From a virus, in IMG/VR virus record IMGVR_UViG_3300025325_000117, positions 1-27,820 of that record: 27,820 bases of DNA. The stretch is one strand, 5' to 3'. The translations under genes and the position numbers were made by a program. Shown here one piece after another: positions 1 through 25,130 of the stretch. The notes below the pieces were generated by a model. That model was given only the letters and a program-made list of their open reading frames with translations, was not told the DNA's origin and ran no database searches. The first letter of the stretch is position 1, and every line of letters starts with the position of its first letter.

Positions 1-684
1 CGCGGCACCATTGCCGACGGCAAGGAACAGTACGCGCTGGCTACCTACGGCAAGGTGTTCGCCATCACGCGGAAGGCACTCGTCAACGACGACACCGACG
101 CGTTCTCCCGCCTCACGGCGCTGTTCGGCCGGGCCGCCCGCCAAAAGGAATCCGATCTCGTCTGGGCGCAGATCACCAGCAACCCGACGATGGGCGACAC
201 CAACGCGCTCTTCAGCGCGGCCCACGGCAACCTGCAGACCGACGGCGATGTGATTTCGATCGCCTCGCTCGGAAGGGCGCGCGCGGCCATGCGGATCCAG
301 AAGGGCCTGGACGGCGTGACGCTGCTCAACATCACCCCGCGGCTCATTCTGGTGCCGACGACCCTGGAGACGGTCGCGGATCAGTACATGGCGCTCATCA
401 CGCCGGGCACAGCCGCCGCGGCCAATCCGTTCTCCGGCAAGCTCAAGGTCATCGTCGAGCCGAGGCTCGACGCGGACAGTGTGACCGCGTGGTACGTCGC
501 GGCCTCGCCGGACCAGCTCGACATGATCGAAGTCGCGCACCTGGAGGGCGAAGAGGGGCCACAGGTCGAGAGCCGGGTCGGCTTCGACGTGGACGGGCTG
601 GAAGTGAAGGCGCGGCTCGACGCGGCGGCGAAGGTCATCGACTGGCGCGGCTTCCACAAGGATCCGGGCGAGCTGGTCAGCTAA
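1..684 (+). CDS. Major capsid protein, Mu gpT-like (5' partial)
   Basis: The window opens in frame inside this gene; 227 codons plus stop are present and the N-terminus lies upstream. The reading begins RGTIADGKEQYALATYGKVF and continues with AITRKALVNDDTDAFSRL, a block typical of Mu gpT-type major head subunits and of prohead protease/major capsid fusion proteins. The end has DWRGFHKDPG, matching the conserved C-terminal DWRGL...PG box of that family. The product should form the icosahedral capsid shell. Because the N-terminus is missing, it cannot be seen whether a ClpP-like prohead protease is fused upstream, as is common. A decoration-type gene follows after 80 bp, the expected order. The family call is confident from motifs; the fusion is inference. 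Confidence 0.85.
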   Translation, partial: RGTIADGKEQYALATYGKVFAITRKALVNDDTDAFSRLTALFGRAARQKESDLVWAQITSNPTMGDTNALFSAAHGNLQTDGDVISIASLGRARAAMRIQKGLDGVTLLNITPRLILVPTTLETVADQYMALITPGTAAAANPFSGKLKVIVEPRLDADSVTAWYVAASPDQLDMIEVAHLEGEEGPQVESRVGFDVDGLEVKARLDAAAKVIDWRGFHKDPGELVS

Positions 685-3227: not shown

Positions 3228-3526
3228 ACACGCCGATCGTGCTCGTGCGGGCCTACGTCGCCATGCTGCCGAGGCTGAAAGCCGAGGCTTCGCAGCGAGC
3301 CGCGACCGAGATCGCCGTCGGCAGTGGCACATTGAAGCCACACGACCGGCTGGCGCTCCTGCGCGAGTGGGCCGACCAGGCGGATCCCGCGGGCCCAGAG
3401 GGTGGCCCCCATCGCGTCAAGACGCGGGCGACGCCTGGCAATCTTGCCGAGATGGGGATCGGGTACGAGCAACTCCCACGTCGGAAGCGGCGCCATGAAG
3501 CTGACCCTCAACACCCAGTCGGTTGA
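2760..3526 (+). CDS. Tail assembly chaperone, -1 frameshift fusion (gpGT-like)
   Basis: This is the predicted long form of the chaperone. Residues 1-114 are shared with the short form; the ribosome then slips -1 on T-TTT-TTT (3095-3101) and reads SASVGAAGDRDHGDASRRR into a second open frame ending at 3526, about 255 aa in total. The downstream frame (EFDLGELLPRLDGFYPGARD, then RAYVAMLPRLKAEASQRAAT) looks genuine and has helical gpT-like character. Without the slip it could only start at a poor GTG (3110) inside the upstream gene. Such G/GT pairs, made in a fixed ratio and binding the tape measure, are established in lambda and many siphophages. It ends inside the N-terminal coding of the gpZ-like gene (starts 3495). 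Confidence 0.8.
3095..3101 (+). promoter_or_regulatory. -1 ribosomal frameshift slippery site
   Basis: Seven consecutive T at 3095-3101 form an X-XXY-YYZ heptamer in the correct register: the zero frame reads AGT TTT TTT CTG, and slipping -1 re-pairs both tRNAs perfectly. The -1 frame is the one that is open to 3526. About 11 nt downstream, GGCGCCG (3113-3119) can pair with CGGCGCC (3149-3155), a possible stimulatory stem with a 29-nt loop. The heptamer and register are seen directly; the stimulatory role of the stem is inference. Confidence 0.85.
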
Positions 3527-4040
3527 GCGCGCCATCGCCACGCTCCGCGAGAAGGCGCCCGCGGCGCTCGTGCGGGCGCTCAACCGTGGCGTCGGGGGAG
3601 GACGGACGGTACTGGTGCGTGACGTCTCGAAGGATCTGCGCCTGAAGGTCGGGCAGGTGCGCGATCGGACCTCGGTCGCGAATGCCACGGCCGCGTCGAT
3701 GGTCGCCCGGATCGTCGCCTCGGCGCAGAAGGTCCCCGCGATTGAGTTCGGCGCGCGTGGGCCGGAACCCTCACGCGGGAAGGGCCGGGGCGTCTCGACG
3801 AAGTTGCCGGCGGGCCGATTCCCGCATGCGTTCATCGCCACGGTACGGAGTCCTCGTGGCGGCCTGCATCGTGGCGTGTTCGAGCGCAAGGCCACAAAGC
3901 GACTGCCGATTCGAGAGATCAAGGGTCCGAGCGTCTGGTTCGTGGCTGGGAAGCACCTCGAGCCGGCGGCTGCGCGGGCGATCGAGCTGGCGGCGAAGAC
4001 GCTCGAGCACGAGATGAGTCGCATCCTCCCAACGAAGTAA
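3495..4040 (+). CDS. Minor tail protein Z-like (gpZ family)
   Basis: This is a 181-aa protein from ATG 3495, preceded by GGAAG. The N-terminal block AIATLREKAPAALVRALNRG followed by RTVLVRDVSKDLRLKVGQVR is characteristic of prophage minor tail protein Z (GPZ) family members, including the 'ALNR....R..V.R.....G......VR' arrangement. The end is helical (AAARAIELAAKTLEHEMSRI). In lambda, gpZ acts at the top of the tail, where DNA must enter the tail before the head joins. The reading frame is open further upstream to 3402, but those codons overlap the chaperone fusion and look non-coding. It overlaps the end of the GT fusion by 32 bp. Confidence 0.75.
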   Translation: MKLTLNTQSVERAIATLREKAPAALVRALNRGVGGGRTVLVRDVSKDLRLKVGQVRDRTSVANATAASMVARIVASAQKVPAIEFGARGPEPSRGKGRGVSTKLPAGRFPHAFIATVRSPRGGLHRGVFERKATKRLPIREIKGPSVWFVAGKHLEPAAARAIELAAKTLEHEMSRILPTK

Positions 4041-4046
4041 CCAGCG

Positions 4047-6929
4047 ATGCCGATCTTCAAACTGGGCCGCGCCGTCCTCGAGTTCGCGGGAGACAAGACC
4101 CAACTTGAGGCGGCGCTCAAAGCCGCTGGCATCGACGTCAAATCCTTCAAAAAGGAGACCGAGGGCGCCACCGGGACCGTCGGCAAGTTCGCGAGCAGTC
4201 TCAAAGGCGTCGGCGCGCTGATCGGCGTGTCGTTCACCGTCGGCGCCGTCGTCAACTTCACCAAGAAAGTCTTCGACGCGGCCTCGGCGATCAACGACCA
4301 GTCGAAATCCCTCGGCTTCGGGGCTGAGAACTTCCAACGGTACGCGTTCGCGGCGAAGCAGTCCGGCGCCGACCAGGAGATTTTCACCAAGAGCGCGAGC
4401 GTCCTGAACGACAAGCTGGCTGGCGGCGACAAGTCGACCGTGGCGGCGCTGAAGAAGGCCGGCCTGGAGTATGAGTCCATCCGGGCGATGAAGCCGGACC
4501 AGGCCTTCCTCGCGGTCTCCAACGCGGTCGGCAAGATCGAAGATCCCATGCTGCGCGCCAACGTCGCGCAGGACCTGTTCGGTAAGGGCGCCCTGAAACT
4601 ACTGCCCGGGATGATCGAGGGCTACGAGAAGCTCGGCGCCGGTGCCAAGGTCATGTCGGACGAAACGATCCGGCGGCTCGAGGCCGCGCAGGACGAGTGG
4701 GAGGCTTTCGCCAACAGCGTCGTCATTCACACCGGCGAGATTCTCGGCGCGATTGCGGGCCTCGGCGAGGAAGCCTCGAAGTCCAAGGCGTTCCAGTTGG
4801 TATTCCTCCCACCGAACGCCTCTGCGGCCCTGCGGGCGCAAATATTGGCGGAGCTGCCGAAAGAGCCGTTCAAGGGCGCACTAGACCGTTTCGGTGTCGG
4901 GGCGCTCAACGAGGCCCAAGCGAAGGCCCTGGGGATCCTGAGTAGCGCGCCGGGTTTTGTCGCCAGGATTAAGGCGGCGCGCGAGCAACTATCGAGGTTG
5001 ACCGCGGAGCAACGAGAGCAACTCGACGCCGCCCAGCAGCTCGAAGGTCAATTTACGGCGCTGGCGAATAGTTACGATCTCAGCGCCGATGCGCAGAAGA
5101 TCTACACCTCCAACGCGAAGGACACGGAAAAAGCCCTCAAGGATCAGGCCGATGCCGCCAAGAAGTTGCTCGACCTGCAGAACAAGATCTACGGCCGAGA
5201 CTTGATCGCGCGAGCCAATGAAATGGCGGCCGCGCTCGGCGACACCGGAGACGTGACGCGGTTGTTGCCTGGGATGCAGAAAGACTTCCTCGGCACCGTC
5301 GACAGCGCGATTGCCGCGTATCAACGGCTTGGTGAGGTTGCGCCGTCGGCGCTGCTGTCGATTCGAGACGCGCTGGTGCCACTGGTGGCCGTGAATGAGT
5401 TGGCGGAGGGCGTCGAAACGAACGTCAACGCGATCCTGTTTCGACTGGGTCAGCTCGGCACGAAGGTCGGCCGGTTGTTGCCTTCGATTACGACGGTGCC
5501 GTTCGATCCGTCGGCGCTCCAGGGCACGCGCGTCAACCTTGGGCGGCCGAGCCTGGCGCGCCTGTTGGGCATCGACCTTGAGGCGGCCGGCCACGAGTTC
5601 AGTCAACAGCTCGGCCCGACGGTCCTGCAGGCGCTGACCGGCGGCGGCAGCGTGAGCCAATCGATCGGCGGCCTGGCCGGGATGCAGATCGGGAAGTCGC
5701 TCAGCACCACCTTCGGCGGCGTCATCAAGAAAGGGCTCGGCGAGAAAATAGGCGGCGCGCTCGGGTCGTTCATTCCTGGGATTGGCGCGCTGATCGGTCC
5801 GCTTCTCGGCAAGGGCCTCTCGGCGCTCGGCGGTCTGTTCGGGATCGGGCCGAGTGAAATGGAAAAGGTCCGCCAAGCTCGTGCCGAGTGGCTGAAGGCG
5901 GCGGGTGGCCTCGACAAGCTCAACAAGTCGGTCGGCGCGGTGGCCGGCGATCCGAAGGTCCGCGCGGCCTGGAATGATCTGTTCAACGCCAAGAAGCTGA
6001 AGGACTACGAAGCCGCGCTCGCCGCCTTCAACACGACGGTGGCCGAGGCGCAGGCGGCGCTACAGCTCCGGCTCGGCGAAGAGCAGGAGGCGCGGGACTT
6101 CCTGCAGGCCACGGTCGAGAAATACGGCTTCACGATCGATCAGCTCGGAGACAAGTGGAAACAGCAGGCGCTCACGGATGAGGCCATGCTCCTGGTCCGA
6201 GAGTACACGGCGCTGACCCGATCGGGCATCGACCACAACCTGGTGATCGAGAAGATGGGGGAGAACATGAACACGTTCTTCCTCAAAGCGATCAAGACCG
6301 GCGTTGAGGTCCCGAAACAGTTGCGGCCGTTGCTGCAACAGATGATCGATCAGGGCACGCTCATCGACGAGAACGGCCAGGCGTTTGACTCCCAGGCGCT
6401 CGATGCGGTCCATTGGAGCCAGACCCTGACCGAGCAGCTCCAGCTCGTGATCGACAAGCTGGGCGAACTGGTCGACGTCATCACGGGCAAACTCGGGAAG
6501 GCCATCGAGGAGATCCCGACGCTGGAGATCCCAGTCGCGCCGCTGAGCAATCGACAGCGGGCGTTCAATCGCGCCAGGGGGCTTGAGAGCTTTGCCACGG
6601 AAGCCTTTGTGCGTCGCCCGACGATGGCGCTCGTCGGGGACGTGCCGGGCGGCGAGTTCGTGCTGAAGCCGTCCACGATCGCGGGCTGGCTCGACCGTGC
6701 GGCTGGATCCGCCTCTGAAGGCCTAAATGGTGACCGTCTCGGCCGACAGATCGCGGCGGCCATCGCCCCGGCCCTGCAGCGGGACGGTGAGGACTTCGTA
6801 CTCGTCGTCGACGGAGAAGTGCTAGGTCGTGTCGTTGGACGCCACCGGGCAACCCAGGAGGAGCTGAGCCGAGGCATCGCGCTCAACACGTTCGGGCTGG
6901 GCACGGCCGTCAGACAGGCCAGCTCATGA
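4047..6929 (+). CDS. Tail tape measure protein
   Basis: At 960 aa this is the longest helical protein in the tail block. It begins PIFKLGRAVLEFAGDKTQLE, the usual small N-terminal domain of tape measures, followed by coiled-coil-rich sequence. There are hydrophobic stretches near residues 55-75 (VGALIGVSFTVGAVVNF) and at about 525-600 (repeated GG-rich segments such as IPGIGALIGPLLGKGLSALG), typical of the membrane-active part of tape measures. The C-terminus (PTMALVGDVPGGEFVLKPS) has the common 'GE.GPE.V.P' type box before a basic helix. It sets tail length; at about 0.15 nm per residue a tail near 140 nm is expected (rule of thumb). It overlaps the next gene by ATGA. Confidence 0.9.
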   Translation: MPIFKLGRAVLEFAGDKTQLEAALKAAGIDVKSFKKETEGATGTVGKFASSLKGVGALIGVSFTVGAVVNFTKKVFDAASAINDQSKSLGFGAENFQRYAFAAKQSGADQEIFTKSASVLNDKLAGGDKSTVAALKKAGLEYESIRAMKPDQAFLAVSNAVGKIEDPMLRANVAQDLFGKGALKLLPGMIEGYEKLGAGAKVMSDETIRRLEAAQDEWEAFANSVVIHTGEILGAIAGLGEEASKSKAFQLVFLPPNASAALRAQILAELPKEPFKGALDRFGVGALNEAQAKALGILSSAPGFVARIKAAREQLSRLTAEQREQLDAAQQLEGQFTALANSYDLSADAQKIYTSNAKDTEKALKDQADAAKKLLDLQNKIYGRDLIARANEMAAALGDTGDVTRLLPGMQKDFLGTVDSAIAAYQRLGEVAPSALLSIRDALVPLVAVNELAEGVETNVNAILFRLGQLGTKVGRLLPSITTVPFDPSALQGTRVNLGRPSLARLLGIDLEAAGHEFSQQLGPTVLQALTGGGSVSQSIGGLAGMQIGKSLSTTFGGVIKKGLGEKIGGALGSFIPGIGALIGPLLGKGLSALGGLFGIGPSEMEKVRQARAEWLKAAGGLDKLNKSVGAVAGDPKVRAAWNDLFNAKKLKDYEAALAAFNTTVAEAQAALQLRLGEEQEARDFLQATVEKYGFTIDQLGDKWKQQALTDEAMLLVREYTALTRSGIDHNLVIEKMGENMNTFFLKAIKTGVEVPKQLRPLLQQMIDQGTLIDENGQAFDSQALDAVHWSQTLTEQLQLVIDKLGELVDVITGKLGKAIEEIPTLEIPVAPLSNRQRAFNRARGLESFATEAFVRRPTMALVGDVPGGEFVLKPSTIAGWLDRAAGSASEGLNGDRLGRQIAAAIAPALQRDGEDFVLVVDGEVLGRVVGRHRATQEELSRGIALNTFGLGTAVRQASS

Positions 6930-12509: not shown

Positions 12510-12846
12510 GCTGTTGTGGAGTCGACTCATCGTTGCCAGCATCGCGCTCGTGGCGAGTACGTGGATGTTCCTCATCTTGGTCCGCGATTCTCGCGCGATG
12601 CGCCTGAGCGGGATCAATGGGGAAGTGCTGCACGCCTATGAAGGTCTGCGGAGCGCGGCGCGGTCGCTGATGTTCATGGCGATGGCCGGGGGTCTGTCGG
12701 CGATTCACCCGTCATGGCGACGGGACCGAGCCTTGATCTGGGTGCTGCTGGTTGGGGTGATTTGGATGTCTGCACGGATGTATCTGGACCGGCGCAAGGC
12801 GGAACTGCTCGCTGGGCAACGTCTCGCGCGCAGGGGTGATGAATGA
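12499..12846 (+). CDS. Three-helix membrane protein (holin candidate)
   Basis: This 115-aa protein starts at GTG 12499 with GGTGAAGG upstream. It has three hydrophobic segments, near residues 6-27 (WSRLIVASIALVASTWMFLI), 57-71 (SLMFMAMAGGLSAI) and 79-97 (ALIWVLLVGVIWMSARMYL), with basic stretches between and a charged C-terminus (DRRKAELLAGQRLARRGDE). Two to three TM helices plus a charged tail is the class I/II holin design, and it is coupled by ATGA to the endolysin gene. Without a family match the holin role is inference; the second candidate is 13335-13787. Confidence 0.6.
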   Translation: MEPELLWSRLIVASIALVASTWMFLILVRDSRAMRLSGINGEVLHAYEGLRSAARSLMFMAMAGGLSAIHPSWRRDRALIWVLLVGVIWMSARMYLDRRKAELLAGQRLARRGDE

Positions 12847-13295
12847 CGATCACCGCGTTCGACCTCGCTATGAGATTCGTCGGCACGAAAGAGATTGCCG
12901 GGGTGTCGTCGAATCCGCTCATCGTGGCGATGCTGAAGCTCGACAACGACTGGGCCGGGTCGGATGACGTGCCGTGGTGCGCAGCGTTCATTTCGTTTAC
13001 TGCGTGGTTGCTCAGATTGCCGCGGTCGAAGTCGCTGGCGGCGCGCTCGTGGCTCACGGTGGGCACACCGATCCGGTTGCAGGACGCCAAGCCTGGCTTC
13101 GACGTGGTGATTCTGAAGCGTGGGGCAGCACCGCAGCCGGGGCCGGATGTGATCGCCGCGCCGGGGCATGTCGGCTGGTTCGCTGGCACAGACGGCAATA
13201 CGGTCACGCTGCTCGGTGGGAATCAGAACAATACCGTGAGTCTCGCGCGTTTCGTGAGTGCCGACGTGCTCGGCGTGCGGAGGCTGGCGAGCTAA
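12843..13295 (+). CDS. Endolysin, NlpC/P60-like (TIGR02594 type)
   Basis: This 150-aa protein starts at ATG 12843, overlapping the previous stop by 4 bp. Features: an N-terminal helix ending FVGTKEIAG, the catalytic-cysteine motif DDVPWCAAFISF (Cys46), APGHVGWFAG (His109) and LLGGNQNNTV (Asn127) as a third polar residue. This C-H-N layout with WCA(A)F at the start of a helix is that of the TIGR02594 family of phage NlpC/P60-related peptidases, which cleave peptidoglycan peptide stems. No signal peptide is seen, so it needs a holin for export; several candidates surround it. Length fits the family (about 150 aa). A strong call by motifs; the exact bond cut is not known. Confidence 0.85.
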   Translation: MTITAFDLAMRFVGTKEIAGVSSNPLIVAMLKLDNDWAGSDDVPWCAAFISFTAWLLRLPRSKSLAARSWLTVGTPIRLQDAKPGFDVVILKRGAAPQPGPDVIAAPGHVGWFAGTDGNTVTLLGGNQNNTVSLARFVSADVLGVRRLAS

Positions 13296-14457: not shown

Positions 14458-15447
14458 ATGGCCCTGCGCACCCGCTCCGGCGTGTTCTCGCGCGTCCTCT
14501 GGACGCCTGAGGGCTGGCTGTGGCTGATCGTGTCGGTCGACCAACGGACGGTTGAGGCGGTGCGGCTGCTGACGGGCGAAGTGCTTTGGGCGCACTCGTG
14601 CCCTGGCATCGGGTTTACGCACCTGGACGCAGACTCGGCGCCAGACGGGTCAGTCCTCTGTGCGGCTCAGGCGTTCACGGCCTCGAACACCGACCCGCGC
14701 AACGACAAGCTCGTGACGATCAACTCGGCGGGCGTGTCGGAGACGGGCCTCGATTGTTCCGGCCAGGAAGGGGCGAAGGTGCGCTGGAACGGCGCGGCGT
14801 TCGTCCTCTATTCCAAACGCGGCGACGGCCAGTACTGGCGGCAGGAAGTGGGCCAGGTGGCGAAAGCTCTACCGGTACTCCGTGGGGTCAATGGCGAATT
14901 GCCGGCGACGTTCCTACTGGACGTGGCAGCCGGGCGCGCGCTCGACGGCTCACAGGATGTGCTGCGCTGGGCGGATCGGGATCGGTTCACCACGGTCGCG
15001 GGCTTACCGATGATTTCGGCGACCGAGCGCGGCGGCGTCTGGTTCGGACAGGAAGCGAGTCCGGCCGATCGCATGGTCGGCGTTGATGGTGTCACGCCCT
15101 TCCTGATTCATGAGGGGCTCGGCTTCTACCCGCGGCTTGAGGTCTCCGCTGACAGCGCCGAGTATGCCGCGACGTGGGCGAACGAGCACGGCACGGTGTC
15201 TGCGGCGCTCATGCCGCCGTTTCCGCCCTACGTGCCGCCGGTTGTCGTGGCGCCTCAGCCAGCACCACCGCCCGCGCCGGAGCTGCCGCCCGTCCCGCCC
15301 GTGGTTGAACCTCCGGCGCCTGTGCCCGTCCCTGTGCCTGAGCCTGAGCCTGCCCCCACGCCGCCGACGCCGAAGAAACGGCCGTGGTGGCAGAAGGCGA
15401 TCGAGATCATCTTGGCGATTGTGCAGTCACGGAGGGGGCGTCCATGA
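14458..15447 (+). CDS. Globular protein with long proline-rich stalk
   Basis: This is a 329-aa protein. Residues 1-255 form a beta-rich globular part (VFSRVLWTPEGWLWLIVSVD, EVLWAHSCPGIGFTHLDADS, KVRWNGAAFVLYSKRGDGQY) with repeated 'W.....V.V......L' strands reminiscent of a propeller or beta-sandwich. The rest is a 50-residue stalk of P/V/A/E (PPFPPYVPPVVVAPQPAPPP, then PVPVPVPEPEPAPTPPTPKK) ending in an amphipathic basic helix (KRPWWQKAIEIILAIVQSRR). At DNA level the stalk is a tandem of CCTGTGCCC/CCTGAGCCT units (about 15316-15356). No signal peptide. It may be a tail- or envelope-spanning fibre-like protein; I do not recognise a family. Confidence 0.5.
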   Translation: MALRTRSGVFSRVLWTPEGWLWLIVSVDQRTVEAVRLLTGEVLWAHSCPGIGFTHLDADSAPDGSVLCAAQAFTASNTDPRNDKLVTINSAGVSETGLDCSGQEGAKVRWNGAAFVLYSKRGDGQYWRQEVGQVAKALPVLRGVNGELPATFLLDVAAGRALDGSQDVLRWADRDRFTTVAGLPMISATERGGVWFGQEASPADRMVGVDGVTPFLIHEGLGFYPRLEVSADSAEYAATWANEHGTVSAALMPPFPPYVPPVVVAPQPAPPPAPELPPVPPVVEPPAPVPVPVPEPEPAPTPPTPKKRPWWQKAIEIILAIVQSRRGRP

Positions 15448-15657: not shown

Positions 15658-15888
15658 TCAGGGCGCGCTCGCCGAAACCTTACGTAAAAACAAGTCCCAG
15701 AATGCGGGGTGCATGGATCGGTCGCCGGCCTCCCATTGGCGCCAGACGCGATCAATGGTGTGGACGAGTAAGGCGGCGCCAGCTTGCGTGAGCCCAGCGT
15801 TCTCCCGCGCCCGCCGAATCTCGTCAGGCGCGGGATTGCGCGACGGATGCGGCGTGCGGCGGGAGCGATTAGGGTGGGTCGGGCTCAT
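15658..15888 (-). CDS. XRE-family helix-turn-helix regulator
   Basis: This 76-aa protein is read on the minus strand from ATG 15888; an open frame extends further upstream but overlaps the neighbouring gene and is not supported. After a short basic N-terminus comes APDEIRRARENAGLTQAGAA, a Cro/CI-type helix-turn-helix start, then HTIDRVWRQWEAGDRSMHPA with the recognition-helix and turn features (LTQ, W.QWE.G). An AGAGGA lies about 12 nt upstream. It is the last gene of a three-gene minus-strand run. DNA binding is likely; a plausible target is the palindrome in that run's promoter (16399-16415), which would be autoregulation (inference). Confidence 0.7.
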   Translation of the reverse strand: MSPTHPNRSRRTPHPSRNPAPDEIRRARENAGLTQAGAALLVHTIDRVWRQWEAGDRSMHPAFWDLFLRKVSASAP

Positions 15889-15895
15889 CGCGTCG

Positions 15896-16081
15896 TCAGT
15901 CCTCTGTGACGATCTTGGGCGTCGTCCAGTGCAGCGAGCCCAGGCGATCCTCGGCGTTGGGATATTTGTGGTCGGCCTCTGCGAGACACGTCTCTGGCGT
16001 CGGCGCCACAATCACGTCCACGACGGGCCACGTGTCGGTGCCTGGAATGACGCGGTGGCTGTCGAGTCGATAAATGGTCAT
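15896..16081 (-). CDS. Small protein of the minus-strand control operon
   Basis: This 61-aa protein is read on the minus strand. A perfect AGGAGG with 5-nt spacing precedes ATG 16081, so the start is certain. The sequence (MTIYRLDSHRVIPGTDTWPV, VDVIVAPTPETCLAEADHKY) is a mixed alpha/beta small domain without known motif. It sits between a 79-aa protein and the XRE regulator and is cotranscribed; it could be a host-takeover or regulatory factor, but that is not shown. Confidence 0.6.
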   Translation of the reverse strand: MTIYRLDSHRVIPGTDTWPVVDVIVAPTPETCLAEADHKYPNAEDRLGSLHWTTPKIVTED

Positions 16082-16090
16082 GGGGTCCTC

Positions 16091-16330
16091 CTAGCGAGCG
16101 ACGGCGATCAGGCCCACGGCCACGAGCGCCTTGAGCGCGTTCTGCACGCGGCTCAGATCGTCAGCCGTGGTGCAGACGATGGCACGGCGGTTGGTGATGT
16201 CGGTTGTCGGCGTCAATCCAATGGCGTCAAGCTGTTGGCACAGCGAGTCGGCGCACGCGCCGCGGATGACCATCTCAAATGCCGGCTTGCCGTGGTCGGT
16301 GGTCCTGAGCAGTTGCAACGTGGGGGTCAT
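16091..16330 (-). CDS. First gene of minus-strand control operon, unknown
   Basis: This 79-aa protein starts at ATG 16330 with a GGGAG 7 nt upstream; an alternative start ATG 16387 adds 19 residues and would nearly coincide with the promoter start point (leaderless). Sequence: MTPTLQLLRTTDHGKPAFEM, then IRGACADSLCQQLDAIGLTP and ADDLSRVQNALKALVAVGLI, a small alpha/beta domain ending in a helix. It carries no recognisable motif. It is the first gene behind the promoter/palindrome at 16395-16423. Possibly regulatory by context only. Confidence 0.55.
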   Translation of the reverse strand: MTPTLQLLRTTDHGKPAFEMVIRGACADSLCQQLDAIGLTPTTDITNRRAIVCTTADDLSRVQNALKALVAVGLIAVAR

Positions 16331-16394: not shown

Positions 16395-16423
16395 AGTATA
16401 GGCGCAATGCGCCTAAGATGCAA
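16395..16423 (-). promoter_or_regulatory. Minus-strand promoter with embedded palindrome operator
   Basis: Read on the minus strand: TTGCAT (16423-16418), a 17-bp spacer, TATACT (16400-16395). The -10 matches 5/6 of consensus and the spacer length is ideal; the -35 is weak. A perfect 17-bp palindrome TAGGCGCAATGCGCCTA (16399-16415) covers the spacer and the inner edge of the -10, the expected spot for a repressor operator. The neighbouring XRE gene is the likely binder (inference). Confidence 0.65.
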
Positions 16424-16431
16424 GAGAAATC

Positions 16432-16465
16432 GCTAATGAGACTGGACGGCTGCTAATGAGACTGG
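16432..16465 (+). repeat. 14-bp direct repeat over a start codon
   Basis: GCTAATGAGACTGG occurs at 16432-16445 and 16452-16465, period 20. The second copy contains the start ATG of the 16456 gene; the first encodes a 6-codon frame (MRLDGC then stop) ending just before it. A leader peptide/coupling device or a recent small duplication is possible. Confidence 0.7.
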
Positions 16466-18399
16466 CAACACGCTATTTCCCGCACCTGCTCGCCACGGCG
16501 CTCCTGACGGTCGGCCTGTATCTGGCCTGCGGGCCAACAGTGGAAGCGCGGCAACTGCCGACGCGGCTCCTCACGGCGGCCGACCTCGTCCATCAATACA
16601 GTTTCACCCTACCGGCGATGCACGATGTCTCGTCCTCGGGCCAGTACTGCGAATACACCAACGGGGCCATCGCCTTCAACCCGGCGGGGAACGGCGGCCA
16701 GGGGTCGCTGTTCTTCACCTGCCACGACTGGACGCAGACGGTGGCGGAGATTTCCATTCCGACATCGACGGGGCAAGCCGTCCAGCTCCAGCAACCGCGG
16801 GACGCGCTCGAAGGGCGGCTCAACCAGATCAACCCGACCGACACGAACAGTAAGAAGATCGGGGGGCTGTTCGTCAGTGGTACGCAACTCCTGCTGACCG
16901 CCTACTCGTTTTACGACGGGGCGATGACGGCCTCGTCATCCCACTTTGTCAGGGCTACCAATCTCGCGACCGCCAGCATCGTCGGCCCGTTCGGCGTGGG
17001 GTCGCTCAATCCCGCCTTCTACGCAGGCTACATGGGGACGATCCCGCCCGTGTGGCAGGCCGCGCTCGGCGGGGACTTTCTCACCGGCCAGTGCTGCCTG
17101 TCGATTGTGAGCCGCACGTCGTATGGTCCATCAGTCAGCGCGGTCACGAAGGCGAACCTGCTATCTGCGGTCAATCCCACCCCGGCGACAACACTCGTCG
17201 CCTACCCGGACGCCCATCAGACGCTCGGTCCGTGGAACCAGACCTCCGGCACCTACAACGACACGGCCGATGTGACCGGTATCCTCCTCCCCGACAACAC
17301 GAACACGGTCCTGTTCGTCGGCAAGATCGGCATCGGGACGTTCTGCTACGGGGATGTGCAATGCGGTCAAACCAGCAAGGGCTCCTACGCGCCGCCCTAC
17401 GTCCCTCGGATCTGGTTTTATCGCGCGTCGGATCTCGCGCTCGTCAAGGCCGGGACCAAACAGTACTGGGAGATCACGCCCTACCTGGTGGAGACGATTC
17501 AGGGGATCGGGACGAACGTCGGCGGGCTCGCGTACAACACCGCCACGGGCCAGATTTACCTCACCGAGAACTTCGGCAACGGGGCACAGGCGCGCATCCA
17601 CGTCTACACCATCAGCGGGACGACGCAGCCGCCGCCACCGCCCACCGAAATCTGTGGTGACGGGATCGACAACGACAACGACGGTCTAATCGACGAAGGC
17701 TGTACGCCGCCACCGCCACCGACGAGCGACACCACGCCGCCGACCATCAATCTCACCCTGTCAAGCGCGGCGCTCGTGCTCGGCCAGACGGTCACGCTGA
17801 CGGTGGCGGTGGACGACAACGTTGCGCTGCGCGGGACGGTCATTCGGCTGAATGGCGTGGACCTGTTCGAGTTCCCGTTTGGCCCGACGCCGCTCCCGAC
17901 GACGTTCACGACGACCTGGACTCCGGCCGCGGTGGGTAGCTACCCCCTCGTGGCCTGGACCCGCGACACGTCCTACAACGACGCGACGGACGCGGAGACA
18001 CTCACGGTGACGACTGTCGCTCTGCCTCCTGCGCCAGTCGATTGCGTCGTCTCCGCGTGGTCCGCGTGGTCGGCGTGGGCGCCGATCAGTGCGACCGAGG
18101 AGTCACGCACGCGCACGCGCACGGTCACGACGCCACCCGCGAATGGTGGCCTGGCCTGTCCTGCCCTGATCGAGACCGAGACGCGCGCGATTGTGGTGCC
18201 GCCGCCGACTAATCCATGTGTGGCCACGCCGCTCGTCGTCACCGTGTCGCGCTGGCCTGGCGGCACCACGGGATCGAAGTCTGGAACGTGGAATAGCGGC
18301 ACATTCTCGCTCGCGTCTGCGACGTTTACCTGGCTGCCGTCGCTGCGCTTCGTGGCCGTGGACACTCGGGGCTGCACAGCGACGAAGGTGCAACCGTGA
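16456..18399 (+). CDS. Secreted multidomain protein: beta domain, MopE-type motif, Ig-like, TSP1-like
   Basis: This is a 647-aa protein with an N-terminal signal peptide (basic RLATRY, hydrophobic LLATALLTVGLYLACGP, likely cleavage near TVEA-RQ; the LYLAC Cys is a poor lipobox). Residues ~35-385 form a large beta-rich domain. Then a Pro linker and ICGDGIDNDNDGLIDEGC (about 398-415), a MopE-type putative metal-binding motif with regular Asp/Asn; a second Pro linker; an Ig-like domain (~425-525; TPPTINLTLSSAALVLGQTV); and from Cys530 CVVSAWSAWSAW...SRTRTRTVTTPP...GGLACPALIETETR, a thrombospondin-1-like repeat with WxxWxxW. A further small beta domain ends it. No SD is obvious. An exported adhesive role is inferred; unusual for a phage. 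Confidence 0.7.
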   Translation: MRLATRYFPHLLATALLTVGLYLACGPTVEARQLPTRLLTAADLVHQYSFTLPAMHDVSSSGQYCEYTNGAIAFNPAGNGGQGSLFFTCHDWTQTVAEISIPTSTGQAVQLQQPRDALEGRLNQINPTDTNSKKIGGLFVSGTQLLLTAYSFYDGAMTASSSHFVRATNLATASIVGPFGVGSLNPAFYAGYMGTIPPVWQAALGGDFLTGQCCLSIVSRTSYGPSVSAVTKANLLSAVNPTPATTLVAYPDAHQTLGPWNQTSGTYNDTADVTGILLPDNTNTVLFVGKIGIGTFCYGDVQCGQTSKGSYAPPYVPRIWFYRASDLALVKAGTKQYWEITPYLVETIQGIGTNVGGLAYNTATGQIYLTENFGNGAQARIHVYTISGTTQPPPPPTEICGDGIDNDNDGLIDEGCTPPPPPTSDTTPPTINLTLSSAALVLGQTVTLTVAVDDNVALRGTVIRLNGVDLFEFPFGPTPLPTTFTTTWTPAAVGSYPLVAWTRDTSYNDATDAETLTVTTVALPPAPVDCVVSAWSAWSAWAPISATEESRTRTRTVTTPPANGGLACPALIETETRAIVVPPPTNPCVATPLVVTVSRWPGGTTGSKSGTWNSGTFSLASATFTWLPSLRFVAVDTRGCTATKVQP

Positions 18400-18450: not shown

Positions 18451-19164
18451 ATGTCTGTTGCCTTTGACGCGGTTATCGCCCAGTTGCAAACCGGTGAAAA
18501 TGTGTCGTCGAAGTCATGGACGCACACACCAACTGGCACGCCGACAGCGGCGATGGTGGCCTTGAAGAAGGTCGGCGGTGACCAAGTCACTGGGGTGACG
18601 TACGGCGGCGCCGCTATGACGCTGGTCAACGAGCACCCGACGACCGGCACCGGACGGCTACAACAATGGGGCCTCGCCAACCCCGCGAGCGGCGCGCAGA
18701 CGGTCGAAATTACAGCTTCCGGATCGGACTTCTCTGTCTCAGCGCATTCGCTGACGTTCACCGGCACACACCTCACGACGGCCGCGTGTTTCACGTCGCC
18801 ACAGGCGGCCGACGGGGGCGTGGAGGCGCAAACGACCACGCTGACCGTGACGAGTCAGGCGGGCGATCTCGTAGTGGATTGGGTCTTCGTGCCGACCTTC
18901 CCAGAGACCGACAAGACATTGACTGAGGGGGCCGATCAGACAGAACGGGCCGAAACGTACAACGCGGCTCGCGGAGACAACTTCGCCACGAGCACGCAGC
19001 CCGGCGCGGCCTCGGTGAGCATGGATTACTCCTGGGCGAGCAGCACGGACGTCGACCTGTGGCGATACATCGCCATCAACATCGTGCAGGCGGCGGCGAG
19101 CATTCTCATTCTGGTGGCGAAAGACATGGCCGATTCTGTGGACATGAAGGACATGCGGGGCTAA
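18451..19164 (+). CDS. Beta-sandwich appendage protein
   Basis: This is a 237-aa protein with TAGGTGAG ahead of ATG 18451. The sequence is beta-rich with a repeated strand style (AAMVALKKVGGDQVTGVTYG; GGAAMTLVNEHPTTGTGRLQ; QTTTLTVTSQAGDLVVDWVF) and a C-terminal hydrophobic stretch IAINIVQAAASILILVAKDM followed by an acidic DSVDMKDM end. The pattern 'T.V...G.AMTLV......GR.....GLANPASGAQTV.I' is common in phage fibre or decoration proteins with a jelly-roll fold. It probably belongs to the appendage block with its downstream neighbours. No ligand or motif is identified. Confidence 0.5.
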   Translation: MSVAFDAVIAQLQTGENVSSKSWTHTPTGTPTAAMVALKKVGGDQVTGVTYGGAAMTLVNEHPTTGTGRLQQWGLANPASGAQTVEITASGSDFSVSAHSLTFTGTHLTTAACFTSPQAADGGVEAQTTTLTVTSQAGDLVVDWVFVPTFPETDKTLTEGADQTERAETYNAARGDNFATSTQPGAASVSMDYSWASSTDVDLWRYIAINIVQAAASILILVAKDMADSVDMKDMRG

Positions 19165-20671: not shown

Positions 20672-21319
20672 ATGGCTATTACCAGTGTCGTCACGCAAGT
20701 CCTGACCGGATCGGGCACCTATACCCCGACCACGGGGATGCTCCAGGTGCTCGCCGTGTGTATCGGTGGGGGCGGGGGCGGCGCGCCGGTCACGGCAGCC
20801 GATGACGCGGGCGGCGGTGGTGGGGGCGGCGGCTGTGCGGTCAAGCTCTTCTCGGCCGCGGACATCGGCGCGAACAAGGAATACGTGGCGGGGGGCGGGG
20901 GAAGCTCAGGCAACGGTGGCACGACGTCGCGACTCGGCGCGGCGGGATCGGAAATCCTGCAGGCCACTGGGGGCGGCACTGGCGCGGCCACCGGCAATAC
21001 CACAACGGTCGGCGTGTCGGCGGCGGGCGGGGTCGGCGGCGTCGGCACCTTGGGCGATCTTAACTTCGCTGGCGAGCCGGGGATGCGCGCCATCATCTAC
21101 TCCACCACGCACGGATCGGGTGGAGCTGGGGGCGCGGCGGCCTCGTTCTTTGGCATCGGCGGCGGCGGTGGCGCCCAGTCCGGCACGGAAGCCGTGGGCA
21201 ATGCCGGCGGAGCCTACGGCGGCGGTGGGGGCGGGGCGCACACGGCGGGCGATACTGATCGCACGGGCGGCGCCGGAGCGGCTGGCGCGCTCTACATGAT
21301 TGAGTTCGTCGGAACCTAG
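20672..21319 (+). CDS. Glycine-rich fibre-domain protein
   Basis: This is a 215-aa protein from ATG 20672 (GAGG upstream). It opens with a short strand segment (QVLTGSGTYTPTTGMLQVLA) and then is dominated by glycine with polyG stretches (GGGGGGAPV, AGGGGSSGNGGT, GIGGGGGAQSG, GGGGGGAHTAG). The pattern '..TYTPT.....V...GGGGGG..' is that of the phage Gly-rich tail-fibre/adhesin domain (Gly_rich_2 type), thought to form packed polyglycine helices at receptor-binding tips. It ends GALYMIEFVGT, like the N-terminal domain of the next protein, so the two are tandem paralogues. Confidence 0.65.
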   Translation: MAITSVVTQVLTGSGTYTPTTGMLQVLAVCIGGGGGGAPVTAADDAGGGGGGGGCAVKLFSAADIGANKEYVAGGGGSSGNGGTTSRLGAAGSEILQATGGGTGAATGNTTTVGVSAAGGVGGVGTLGDLNFAGEPGMRAIIYSTTHGSGGAGGAAASFFGIGGGGGAQSGTEAVGNAGGAYGGGGGGAHTAGDTDRTGGAGAAGALYMIEFVGT

Positions 21320-21325
21320 CGCCAG

Positions 21326-23458
21326 ATGGCCAATCTCACTGGCCTCATCGCACGTGTCTTCGGCGCCGGGAGTAGCACTTATACCCCGACGGCGAACACG
21401 GCGCACGTCCTCGCCATCCTGCAAGGCGGCGGGGCGGGCGGCGTCACGGCGGCGGCGACCGATGAATCCGGCGGGGGTGGCGGCGAAGGCGGCCGATCCG
21501 TCGAACTGCTCGACGCGGCCACGATTGGCGCGAGCAAGCCCTACGTGGTGGGCGCGGCAGCGGCGACCGATGTTGGCGGCAATCCGACGACTCTCGACAC
21601 GGCCGGGGCGATTGCCAATGCCCCCGGCGGCAGCCTCGGCGCCGCTACGGGTGGCTCGACGACCGTTGGGGTGTCGAGTGCGGGCGGCGCGGGCGGCCTC
21701 GGTACAAATGGCTCTCTGAACGTCCAGGGCGAGCCCGGCTGGCGCGCGATTCAATTCTCAGGCGCAGACGGTGCGGGTGGCGCTGGTGGCGGCGTCTCCG
21801 GTGGTGCGCCTGGCGGGAGTAACGCCGTCGGCGGCAATGCGGGTGCCTACGGCGGTGGCGGCGCAGGCGGCCATGCGTCTGGCGCACCGAACCGAGCAGG
21901 TGGCGGGGGCTCTGCCGGCGTCATGTTCCTGCTGGAGTTCATTGCCTCCAGCGATGTGACCGTCGGGCTCACAGGCGTTGCTGGCACCTCCGCGATCGGC
22001 ACGCTCGGCCTCGCCGTCACCATTGCGCTCTCGGGGGTTGCGGCCACCGCCTCGGCCGGCACCATCACGCCTAGCGCAGACGTGCCGCTGACCGGCGTCT
22101 CGGCGACCGGCAGTCCTGGCACGGTAGGTCCAGCCTTCTCGCTGGCGCTGTCTGGGGTCGGTGGGACTGGGGCGCTGGGGTCGTTGGGCGTCGGCCATCC
22201 CGTCAATATCCTGACCCAGCTCACGCCCGGCGGTGTACCTGGGCAACGCTACGGGGGCTTCTCTCGGGCGCCAGCTACGACGGTCGCCCTGACGGGGGTC
22301 GAAGGGACGGGGGCCATCGGGACGGTTGGCCCCGGCTTCAGTCTGGCGCTGACAGGGGCCGCAGGGACCGGAGCCCTTGGCACCGTCGGGCCGACGTTCT
22401 CGCGGGCGCTGTCTGGCGTGGAAGGGACTGGCACACCGGGCACGGTCGCGCCACAGTTCGACATCCCGATCACGGGCGTGGCCGGCACAGGCAGCCCCGG
22501 CAACGTCTCGCCAGAGTTCGACGTTCCGATCACGGGTGTCGAAGGCACGGGCCAAGTGGGGACGGTGGTCCCCACGTTCCCGGTCCCCCTGACCGGCGAG
22601 GAAGCGACCGGCGAGATTGGCACGGTTGCGCCCGCCTTCGACATCCCACTGGTAGGCGTTGAGGGCACGGGCGACACCGGCACAGTCAGTGCCGGAGCGG
22701 ACATCACGCGCGCCCTCACCGGCGTCGGAGGGACCGGCGACGTCGGGGCCGTTGCACCGGAGTTTGCTGTTGCGCTCACGGGCGAGGAGGGCACCGGGGA
22801 GACCGACGTCGTTGCGCCCGTCTTTGAGATCCCGCTATCGGGGGTCGAAGGCTCCGGCCAGGTCGGCACGGTCAGTGCGGGCGCCGACGTCACGGTCGCG
22901 CTCAGCGGCGTCGCCGGCACGGGTCAGACGGGCATCGTCGACCCGAGTCTCACGGTCGCGTTGACTGGCACGGAAGGGACCGGCGAGATCGGTGCCGTCG
23001 TCCCCACCTTCCCGGTTGAGTTGTCGGGCGTCGAGGGCACGGGCGAGACGGGTACGGTTGTCCCGGCCTTCGACGTCTCGCTGAGCGGCAACGTCGGCAC
23101 GGGGCAGGTCGGCAACGTCACGGCCGGCAACGATCAGACGGCCGCGCTCACGGGCGTCGAGGGGACTGGCTCAGTTGGGCAAGTCGCCGTCACGGTTTCG
23201 GTCGTCCTGACCGGCGTCTCGTCGACTGGTGCTGTCGGCACGGTGACGCCGAGTGTCACCGTCGCACTGACCGGCGTGCAAGGGACCGGACAGACGGGCA
23301 CGGTCGCCATTCCAGCCTCGTCAGCCGACGAAGTGACCACCGAAGAGGCGATCTTCCGGCGCACGGTGACCGGAGAAGATGCCGGGGTGCGCCGCGCGTG
23401 GACTGGCGAACAGGCGATCTATCGTCGGACCGTCACAGGTTCAGACACGGAGCGATAA
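21326..23458 (+). CDS. Glycine-rich domain plus ~21 tandem 20-residue repeats (fibre)
   Basis: This is a 710-aa protein, 6 bp after its paralogue. Residues 1-208 are homologous to the preceding gene (TYTPT...; GEPGWRAIQFSGADGAGGAG; MFLLEFIASSD). Then come about 21 units of the consensus V-ALTGVEGTG-xxGTV-xPxF (20 or 22 residues). Unit 4 is broken by a 26-residue insert (HPVNILTQ..., GGVPGQRYGGFSRAP). The C-terminus repeats RRTVTG (FRRTVTGEDAGVRRAWTGEQ, IYRRTVTGSDTER). The repeats resemble 'LTGVSATGSVGTV' arrays known in phage fibres; they probably form a long stalk. Expansion or contraction by recombination is possible. Confidence 0.7.
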   Translation: MANLTGLIARVFGAGSSTYTPTANTAHVLAILQGGGAGGVTAAATDESGGGGGEGGRSVELLDAATIGASKPYVVGAAAATDVGGNPTTLDTAGAIANAPGGSLGAATGGSTTVGVSSAGGAGGLGTNGSLNVQGEPGWRAIQFSGADGAGGAGGGVSGGAPGGSNAVGGNAGAYGGGGAGGHASGAPNRAGGGGSAGVMFLLEFIASSDVTVGLTGVAGTSAIGTLGLAVTIALSGVAATASAGTITPSADVPLTGVSATGSPGTVGPAFSLALSGVGGTGALGSLGVGHPVNILTQLTPGGVPGQRYGGFSRAPATTVALTGVEGTGAIGTVGPGFSLALTGAAGTGALGTVGPTFSRALSGVEGTGTPGTVAPQFDIPITGVAGTGSPGNVSPEFDVPITGVEGTGQVGTVVPTFPVPLTGEEATGEIGTVAPAFDIPLVGVEGTGDTGTVSAGADITRALTGVGGTGDVGAVAPEFAVALTGEEGTGETDVVAPVFEIPLSGVEGSGQVGTVSAGADVTVALSGVAGTGQTGIVDPSLTVALTGTEGTGEIGAVVPTFPVELSGVEGTGETGTVVPAFDVSLSGNVGTGQVGNVTAGNDQTAALTGVEGTGSVGQVAVTVSVVLTGVSSTGAVGTVTPSVTVALTGVQGTGQTGTVAIPASSADEVTTEEAIFRRTVTGEDAGVRRAWTGEQAIYRRTVTGSDTER
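21956..23315 (+). repeat. 60-bp-period tandem coding repeat array
   Basis: About 21 in-frame degenerate units of 60 bp (some 66 bp) encoding LTGVEGTG-type repeats. Unit 4 is interrupted by an insertion near 22195-22275. Units share GG(C/G)AC(G/C)GG cores but are not identical at DNA level. Confidence 0.8.
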
Positions 23459-23990: not shown

Positions 23991-25130
23991 TCATGCCGCA
24001 TTCCGAGGGATGACGCCGGCGGTCCAGAGCGCGACCGCCACCCACAGGTAGAGCGACCCCGTTGTGAGCGTCAGCCACGGCGATGGCTGGCCCCACAATG
24101 GCGTCGTATCAGGTAGCCAGAGCGCCACGGCGCCGCAGGCAAGCGCCAGTCTGGCCCAGGTGGTTCCGGTGACCCACACTGCGACGGCCGGGCCAGCGAG
24201 CCACCAGCAGCCGAATACCCAGCCTATTGGCGCGACGAGGATGGCCGCAGCGATCAGGGTCAGGAGGGCGCGATCAGGATCCCGACGGACGATCACCGTC
24301 GCGGTGACGAGAAGTCCTGCGAGCACAGCCCAGATCGGCCTGACGAGCGCCGGCGCTGGCATGATGGGCGCATAGAGCGATGTTTCGGTGAACGCGCGTA
24401 GCGCGGCCTGCATGATCGCGGCGTCATGGAATTGGCCGGCCATCGGCGCCCGGGCGAGGATGACGAGCCAGCCGGCATAGACGTCGATACCGAGGGTGAG
24501 CAGGCCCACGACGAAGATCACGAGCCAGGTCGACGTCATCGCCAACGCGGCGCGATGCTCACGTTGAATGGCGAACCACACGAGCGGAAGCAGTAACAGT
24601 ACTTTGCACGCGGCCGCGGCGCCGAGCCACCGTGCAGTGACGGTCAGCCGGCCGCGGCGCCACGCGACCCACGCGAAAGTCAGCGGGATTGTAAGGAGCG
24701 GATAGTAGTTACCACTCGCGACCGACCCCATCGCAAGGCCTGAACTGGCGACCACGGCCGCGGCCAGCAGAGCGACCGACCAGGAATGTGTGAGATCCAA
24801 TTCGCGTGCGATGCGCAATGCGCAGAAGCCCAGCGCGGCGGCGTTGATGGCAAGCCAGATGTAATAGGCGGACTGAATCGACCACCCCTGCAGCGGGAGG
24901 AAGAGGAGGAGGACATGCGGCGGGGCGAGATTCGGTGAAGTCATCCCTTGCGGGATGGCGTATGGGTCGCAGCGCGAGACCAAGCAGGCGGCCGCGCGGT
25001 AGAAGACCCCGAAGTCGACGAGATCGAACCTAATGTTGCTGGCCAAGGCATCGGCCAGACGACGTGTGCCAACGACCGTGATGATGACCGCAGCCGAACA
25101 GCGAAGCACGACCGGATGTCCAACTGTCAT
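23991..25130 (-). CDS. GT87/DUF2029-type membrane glycosyltransferase
   Basis: This is a 379-aa polytopic membrane protein on the minus strand. Signature features: an N-terminal TM, VDFGVFYRAAACLVSRCDPY with the Asp and DPY of the GT87 (DUF2029) family, TSPNLAPPHVLLLFLPLQGW with the 'PP...L..PL' pattern, then about nine to ten hydrophobic helices. GT87 enzymes use polyprenyl-phosphate sugars and add hexoses (e.g. mannose) on the periplasmic face of lipid-linked or cell-envelope glycans. No SD precedes ATG 25130. It lies alone on the opposite strand between fibre and control regions, a typical moron place, and may modify the host surface to block superinfection. Function is inferred from family. 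Confidence 0.75.
   Translation of the reverse strand: MTVGHPVVLRCSAAVIITVVGTRRLADALASNIRFDLVDFGVFYRAAACLVSRCDPYAIPQGMTSPNLAPPHVLLLFLPLQGWSIQSAYYIWLAINAAALGFCALRIARELDLTHSWSVALLAAAVVASSGLAMGSVASGNYYPLLTIPLTFAWVAWRRGRLTVTARWLGAAAACKVLLLLPLVWFAIQREHRAALAMTSTWLVIFVVGLLTLGIDVYAGWLVILARAPMAGQFHDAAIMQAALRAFTETSLYAPIMPAPALVRPIWAVLAGLLVTATVIVRRDPDRALLTLIAAAILVAPIGWVFGCWWLAGPAVAVWVTGTTWARLALACGAVALWLPDTTPLWGQPSPWLTLTTGSLYLWVAVALWTAGVIPRNAA

Follow-up and report, generated by a model that had tools for sequence, protein, structure and literature searches.

The window analysed here, an IMG/VR virus record representing a soil-type bacterial virus, is a stretch of 27,820 bases, and its plus strand carries in succession a capsid gene, tail genes, a lysis block, the gene at 14458-15447, a small membrane protein gene, the ORF at 16456-18399 and tail-fibre genes (Table 1). 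The extent of this ORF was confirmed as given by the initial annotation. Its product is composed of a signal peptide, a beta domain of ~355 aa, a MopE-like loop, an Ig-like domain, a TSP1-like repeat and a C-terminal module; in a Pfam scan of this protein, no match reached the curated cut-off. The lysis block also includes a holin-like ORF, recognised by inspection. Contamination of the contig with a host gene was considered and rejected, with phage genes on both flanks of the ORF and an identical gene order in phage G001 (IMGVR_UViG_3300012038_000025, locus L085).

Table 1. Features of the propeller-TSP1 gene and its surroundings in the window.
Feature	Position	Strand	Evidence and remarks
Capsid gene	55-684	+	phrog_4523
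Minor_tail_Z	3402-4040	+	
Tape measure	4047-6929	+	
Candidate lysozyme-like endolysin, in adjoining lysis block	12843..13295	+	phrog_1259 (tail lysozyme), E=1.2e-17
Neighbour protein, Pro-rich tail and C-terminal WW (Trp-rich, basic) helix	14458..15447	+	
Divergent block: three small ORFs, of which the most distant (15658-15894) is an HTH_31-like regulator	15658..16330	-	HTH_31 E=3.8e-5, just under cut-off
Perfect 17-nt palindrome TAGGCGCA-A-TGCGCCTA, operator-like	16399..16415	.	41 nt ahead of the start codon of ORF 16456-18399
Propeller-Ig-TSP1 protein, predicted to be exported	16456..18399	+	647 aa; coordinates include stop codon
Predicted Sec signal peptide, aa 1-31, cleavage VEA/RQ	16456..16548	+	Heuristic scan
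Predicted beta-propeller domain, aa 34-392, six Cys	16555..17631	+	AF2, Foldseek
MopE-like Cys-flanked DxDxDG loop (ICGDGIDNDNDGLIDEGC), aa ~397-416	17644..17703	+	PF11617, sub-threshold
Ig-like domain, aa 433-519	17752..18012	+	Big_3_5 E=0.001, below cut-off
TSP1-like repeat, Cys1/Cys4 kept, Cys2/Cys5 lost	18040..18183	+	PF19028; own profile; Cys co-retention
Three 9-bp units (TCCGCGTGG x2, TCGGCGTGG) encoding SAW SAW SAW	18052..18078	+	Sequence
C-terminal module (NPC...WP...DTRGCTAT), 60 aa	18217..18396	+	49% identical in G001; AF2 pLDDT <50
Minor tail protein-like neighbour	18451..19164	+	phrog_2106 E=7e-8
Gly-rich tail-fibre proteins	20672-23458	+	

Several neighbouring genes have counterparts elsewhere. 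The product of 14458-15447 found no match in a family search; a protein with the same combination of a Pro-rich linker and a C-terminal Trp-rich basic helix is encoded near the propeller-TSP1 gene of a presumed prophage in the Acidobacteriota genome SCN 69-37 (L179:1024-2538, minus strand). The same short C-terminal peptide, perhaps an assembly tag, terminates two otherwise dissimilar neighbours, at 18451-19164 in the window (..VAKDMADSVDMKDMRG) and at L085:2997-3812 in G001 (..VARDMASPVDMQDMRG). A GT87 membrane glycosyltransferase (E=1.1e-18) is encoded at 23991-25130 on the minus strand, opposite to the ORF at 16456-18399, and G001 likewise encodes a glycosyltransferase-like protein (L085:2008-3000); modification of host-surface glycans is a possible role for both.

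The divergent block lies between the upstream membrane protein gene and the ORF at 16456-18399, and two of its small ORFs have good ribosome-binding sites. The palindrome ahead of the start codon was first spotted by eye and tested afterwards; the search yielded one match in the window, and 16 of 100 shuffles gave at least one match at up to 3 mismatches. A 14-nt direct repeat, GCTAATGAGACTGG, lies at 16432 and 16452, overlapping the start codon. Prediction found no sigma-70 promoter for the gene, and the matching gap in G001 leaves no room for such a divergent block. With its divergent HTH block and palindrome, the setting of the gene is moron-like.

The N-terminus of the protein (MRLATRYFPH-LLATALLTVGLYLAC-GPTVEARQ) contains n-, h- and c-regions with a VEA cleavage site, which bears out the proposed signal peptide as judged by a heuristic scan, not by SignalP. 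The same scan detected signal peptides in the phage homologues L085 (G001), L089, L095, L096, L106 and L110, and in none of 14 others; the SCN 69-37 prophage copy has one as well. The signal sequences of the window protein and its G001 homologue differ, while their domains are 62% identical. The 14 phage homologues lacking signal peptides start with other N-termini, which are partly conserved and lead into Pro-rich linkers. Two conserved peptides, MPS[RK]PAMLRG[VLM]LTW and INWRADEIK, stand ahead of the Pro-rich linkers and the propeller in such homologues (L098-L101, L104, L105, L107; L088, L090-L092) and are candidate virion-attachment elements. Where the propeller protein has a signal peptide, the products of neighbouring genes often have one too, as directly upstream in L096, L106, L110 and the SCN 69-37 prophage; with the propeller genes themselves left out, however, the surplus of signal peptides across the remaining genes of these phages was only a trend. 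A tail fibre combining a Peptidase_S74 chaperone with a Sec signal peptide is encoded at L095:2519-4102 (plus strand), and apparently another, cut at the contig end, at L179:4362-7196 (minus strand).

Of the 12 cysteines in the mature protein, the propeller has six, and the three modules that follow have two each. The drop in total cysteine count expected in phage forms without signal peptides was not found (p=0.34). An exploratory test of cysteine parity, made after the failure of the former, revealed odd counts in 3 of 53 bacterial or signal-peptide-bearing phage domains versus 6 of 16 phage domains without signal peptides (p=0.0036), the sequences being related and some of them fragments. 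Even counts fit an oxidised compartment. Judging from the sequence, it is very probable that the protein is exported via Sec.

The large beta domain noticed initially was modelled by AlphaFold2, with 69 relatives, as a beta-propeller (pLDDT 96.1, pTM 0.94), and beta-propellers fill the top of the Foldseek list for this model with E-values of about 1e-5 to 1e-4. The best TM-scores were obtained for GH130 and GH43-type folds (3taw, 0.46; 5a7v, 0.45; 8hhv, 0.43), all below 0.5. The assignment of the N-terminal domain as a propeller is thus confident at the level of the model, and five blades are probable. The full-length AlphaFold2 model gave poor fold matches because domains were mixed, and the propeller matches were obtained when this domain was folded alone. 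By sequence, none of the 43 members examined matched a Pfam family in the propeller domain, and no chain of a solved structure matched it convincingly. Scans of viral contigs with the whole protein and its sub-segments, as well as tblastn against INPHARED phages and PLSDB plasmids, returned no relatives. A hand-chosen pattern, F.G..G.G.[FY]CYG, based partly on a bacterial family, did retrieve relatives, at about 40 loci in bacteria and two in viruses, as tblastn confirmed, and an alignment of these relatives revealed the propeller in 28 viral loci. Polar and aromatic positions in the YYD, KGxHAYPY, VWAYDA and DPATGR segments are strongly conserved over 69 sequences, and the conserved residues include E65, D83, Y120, D121, H278 and D328 of the domain.

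The MopE assignment is weak. The match to Cu-binding_MopE (PF11617, aa 397-414) has an E-value of 0.031 and 15 bits against a cut-off of 27; the assignment depends mainly on the visible Cys-flanked DNDNDGLIDE loop, which by inspection fits a calcium-type DxDxDG site. The Ig-like domain has tentative support from its Big_3_5 match, though under the cut-off, and from a well-ordered all-beta AlphaFold2 model (pLDDT about 76-93); the G001 relative matches Big_7 above the cut-off (E=7.8e-10).

The TSP1-like assignment is well supported. The TSP1_spondin profile (PF19028) matched aa 530-575 with an E-value of 1.7e-7, at 31.9 bits below the cut-off of 41. A custom TSP1-like profile, 1 of whose 14 rows is the window repeat itself, gave E=5e-23. 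The alignment shows the layered W/R motif (WSAWSAW...SRTRTRT). The full TSP1 set of six cysteines in three disulfides is absent; only Cys1 and Cys4 are kept and the pairs are lost together in related repeats, so the repeat is TSP1-like rather than a full TSP1. The tandem 9-bp DNA units reported earlier are real, and they just code for the SAW-SAW-SAW stretch of this repeat. TSP1 and MopE matches and a cleavage site, the joint lack of which would have spoken against the initial annotation, were thus all found.

The repeats in phages share the consensus WSxWSxC...RTRTV.TPxxNGGxxCPxLxETRxC. Among 47 distinct phage repeats, cysteines 1, 2, 4 and 5 are all present in 41; exactly the 1 and 4 pair is lost in three, and exactly the 2 and 5 pair in the window and L120, while the remaining one (L115) is truncated where its contig ends. 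The search pattern for these repeats missed L089, a further case of 1/4 loss. Co-retention was significant for cysteines 1 and 4 (Fisher test, p=0.0002) and for 2 and 5 (p=0.003), with cross pairs unassociated; the independent losses perhaps number about three to four, since kin share events. The pairs 1/4 and 2/5 match the group-2 TSR pattern of F-spondin. Like group-2 (spondin-like) TSP1 domains, the window repeat has the WSxWSxW/RTRTR ladder and the NGGxxCP turn, and the cysteine pairs are lost as 1/4 or 2/5; it differs in having two cysteines instead of the usual six, in scoring below the cut-off and in belonging to a phage protein.

The modules proved not to be rare in phages, contrary to the initial annotation, since TSP1-like repeats occur in about 30 viral contigs, in addition to the 28 viral loci with the propeller. 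One protein, L184, exceeds the PF19028 cut-off with 129.6 bits and contains six repeats followed by a beta-helix-like tail. TSP1-like repeats are joined to propeller-like or beta-helix-like regions at L190:6050-8992 (minus), L184:3831-7472 (plus) and L120:8192-9769 (minus). No report of TSP1 repeats or of this propeller in phages was found in an open-access literature library. PF19028 had no matches in 199 Acidobacteriota genomes and none in the controls, so that this null result is uninformative. The custom profile was used instead, five viral records serving as its positive controls; it revealed one strong match in these genomes, in SCN 69-37, adjoining a propeller copy.

On the ML tree, the window propeller pairs with that of G001 (support 100), and both fall inside a six-member clade whose other members are Acidobacteriota (SCN 69-37, ZC4RG22; support 100). 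Viral members are scattered among bacteria, with seven changes, at least four of which are forced by the starred branches; the propeller has thus crossed between bacteria and phages on several occasions. The domain occurs in secreted bacterial proteins and was found in 18 of the 199 Acidobacteriota genomes. The proposed host derivation is supported by this nesting. In G001, five neighbouring ORFs match those of the window in order and orientation, and the upstream genes encode the tape measure, major tail and head-tail adaptor proteins. The G001 protein keeps the signal peptide, propeller, Ig-like domain and C-terminal module and lacks the TSP1-like repeat and the MopE loop, which are therefore optional inserts.

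In SCN 69-37, the region with this match occupies about 59.6-72 kb of contig C14. Its gene products are, in order, a tail fibre with an S74 chaperone, a cell-wall hydrolase, a holin-like protein, a counterpart of the Pro-rich-tailed protein of 14458-15447, a lipoprotein, a protein with signal peptide, propeller, TSP1 and collagen parts, a repeat protein and a member of the Gp80 fibre family. The propeller-TSP1 gene contains a masked run of N across which the frame shifts, and its two pieces were read separately and left unrepaired. We read this region as a prophage, which points to Acidobacteriota hosts. Similar designs are found in viral contigs L089 (propeller, GH16 and TSP1) and L095 (propeller, TSP1 and collagen, with a GH5-like neighbour), while in L093 a propeller relative is fused to Beta_helix. 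Secreted bacterial proteins with this propeller (for example SCN 69-37, L046/L056) resemble the window protein in having a propeller 51-56% identical and, by inspection, a signal peptide; L046 has Ig-like repeats after the propeller, and L046/L056, unlike the window protein, lack TSP1.

Anatomy, homology, synteny and recurrence of the architecture are thus evident at the sequence level, and export is strongly suggested. Among the options raised initially, an exported adhesin is the best reading: a glycan-directed surface protein with the host envelope or matrix as its probable site of action, to which we assign a probability of about 0.45. The infected cell would export the protein through Sec, and outside the cytoplasm it would fold into the six-Cys propeller, calcium-type loop, Ig-like domain, two-Cys TSP1-like repeat and C-terminal module. 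The propeller, presumably acquired from secreted proteins of Acidobacteriota hosts, would probably bind envelope or matrix glycans, with the Ig-like and TSP1-like parts serving as spacer or adhesive modules. A glycan target is fairly likely; action at the host surface or matrix is more tentative, and could consist in receptor masking against superinfection or re-adsorption, or in changed adhesion. This reading is favoured by the retained signal peptides, the 6+2+2+2 cysteine distribution, the cysteine parity, the pairwise loss of TSP1 cysteines, the modelled propeller with its GH130/GH43-type matches, the fusions to GH16 (L089) and beta-helix (L093), the GH5-like neighbour in L095, the nesting within Acidobacteriota, the synteny with G001, the shared architecture in the SCN 69-37 prophage-like region and the HTH block with its palindrome. 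Against it, the propeller fold matches are weak in TM-score and the place among tail-fibre genes suits a virion role too. Lysogenic conversion specifically, as proposed before, is unproven: no integrase was recognised in the 27.8 kb, and the gene is located in the lysis/tail-fibre region.

Many phage homologues have other N-termini in place of signal peptides; synthesis of these forms must be cytoplasmic, suggesting that the family functions in virions. The window protein could then be a tail adhesin: seated on the tail or baseplate, its propeller, Ig-like and TSP1-like modules would attach to glycans of host or matrix, and the hydrophobic segment at its N-terminus would be a relic or an assembly or membrane element. 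The neighbouring tail proteins, the conserved non-export N-termini, the tailspike-type Beta_helix fusion in L093, the L184 and L190 proteins, which lack a signal peptide and join TSP1 to beta-helix-like or propeller-like regions, and the collagen-like tails of L095 and the SCN 69-37 copy, which resemble trimeric fibres, are all consistent with this. However, the virion proteins of tailed phages normally undergo assembly in the cytoplasm, whereas both phages of the window's branch have a clear signal peptide despite divergent sequence, and even cysteine counts suit an oxidised compartment, so that we consider a virion adhesin, though the main rival reading, rather unlikely. The TM-scores to GH130 and GH43-type propellers, the conserved polar and aromatic positions and the relatives with a link to GH16 or a GH5-like protein nearby could also indicate a secreted carbohydrate-active enzyme, a divergent glycoside hydrolase or lyase clearing host matrix polysaccharide before or after lysis, but with these scores under 0.5 and no Pfam match for the propeller this is improbable. 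That a host secreted-protein gene was picked up as neutral cargo, without a role of its own, would agree with the occurrence of the domain in secreted proteins of Acidobacteriota; it is highly improbable given the same position in two divergent phages, the intact frame, the conserved C-terminal module and the recurrent exchange with phages.

Known phage proteins offer partial parallels to the favoured surface adhesin. The host-recognition device of Staphylococcus phage phi11 (PDB 5efv) uses a propeller for host recognition and appears in the Foldseek list with a TM-score of only 0.29; it is a virion component without a signal peptide. The Ig-like module recalls T4 Hoc, whose Ig-like modules are thought to give weak glycan adhesion, although Hoc is a capsid protein with neither signal peptide nor propeller. 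Ltp of Streptococcus thermophilus phage TP-J34 (PMC3952083) is an exported lipoprotein with a demonstrated role in superinfection exclusion; like Ltp, the window protein is phage-encoded and presumably bound for the host surface, but it is a large multi-module protein for which exclusion is a possible role. Beyond the single gene, it is conceivable, if doubtful, that some tailed phages, at least those of Acidobacteriota, carry among their tail genes a whole cassette for tail-fibre-like proteins exported through Sec, acting as free surface decoys or as virion fibres attached after export; its members in view would be propeller-TSP1/collagen adhesins, S74 fibres with signal peptides, and lipoproteins.

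Altogether, trimmed thrombospondin-type repeats emerge as a recurrent building block in environmental phage proteins, and the propeller as a family common to phages and hosts for which Pfam has no model. In phages of Acidobacteriota, a major phylum in soils with few studies on its phages, the tail region appears to encode exported multi-module proteins. Should the adhesin change adsorption or binding to the matrix, it would give phages a directly testable means of managing the surface of the host.
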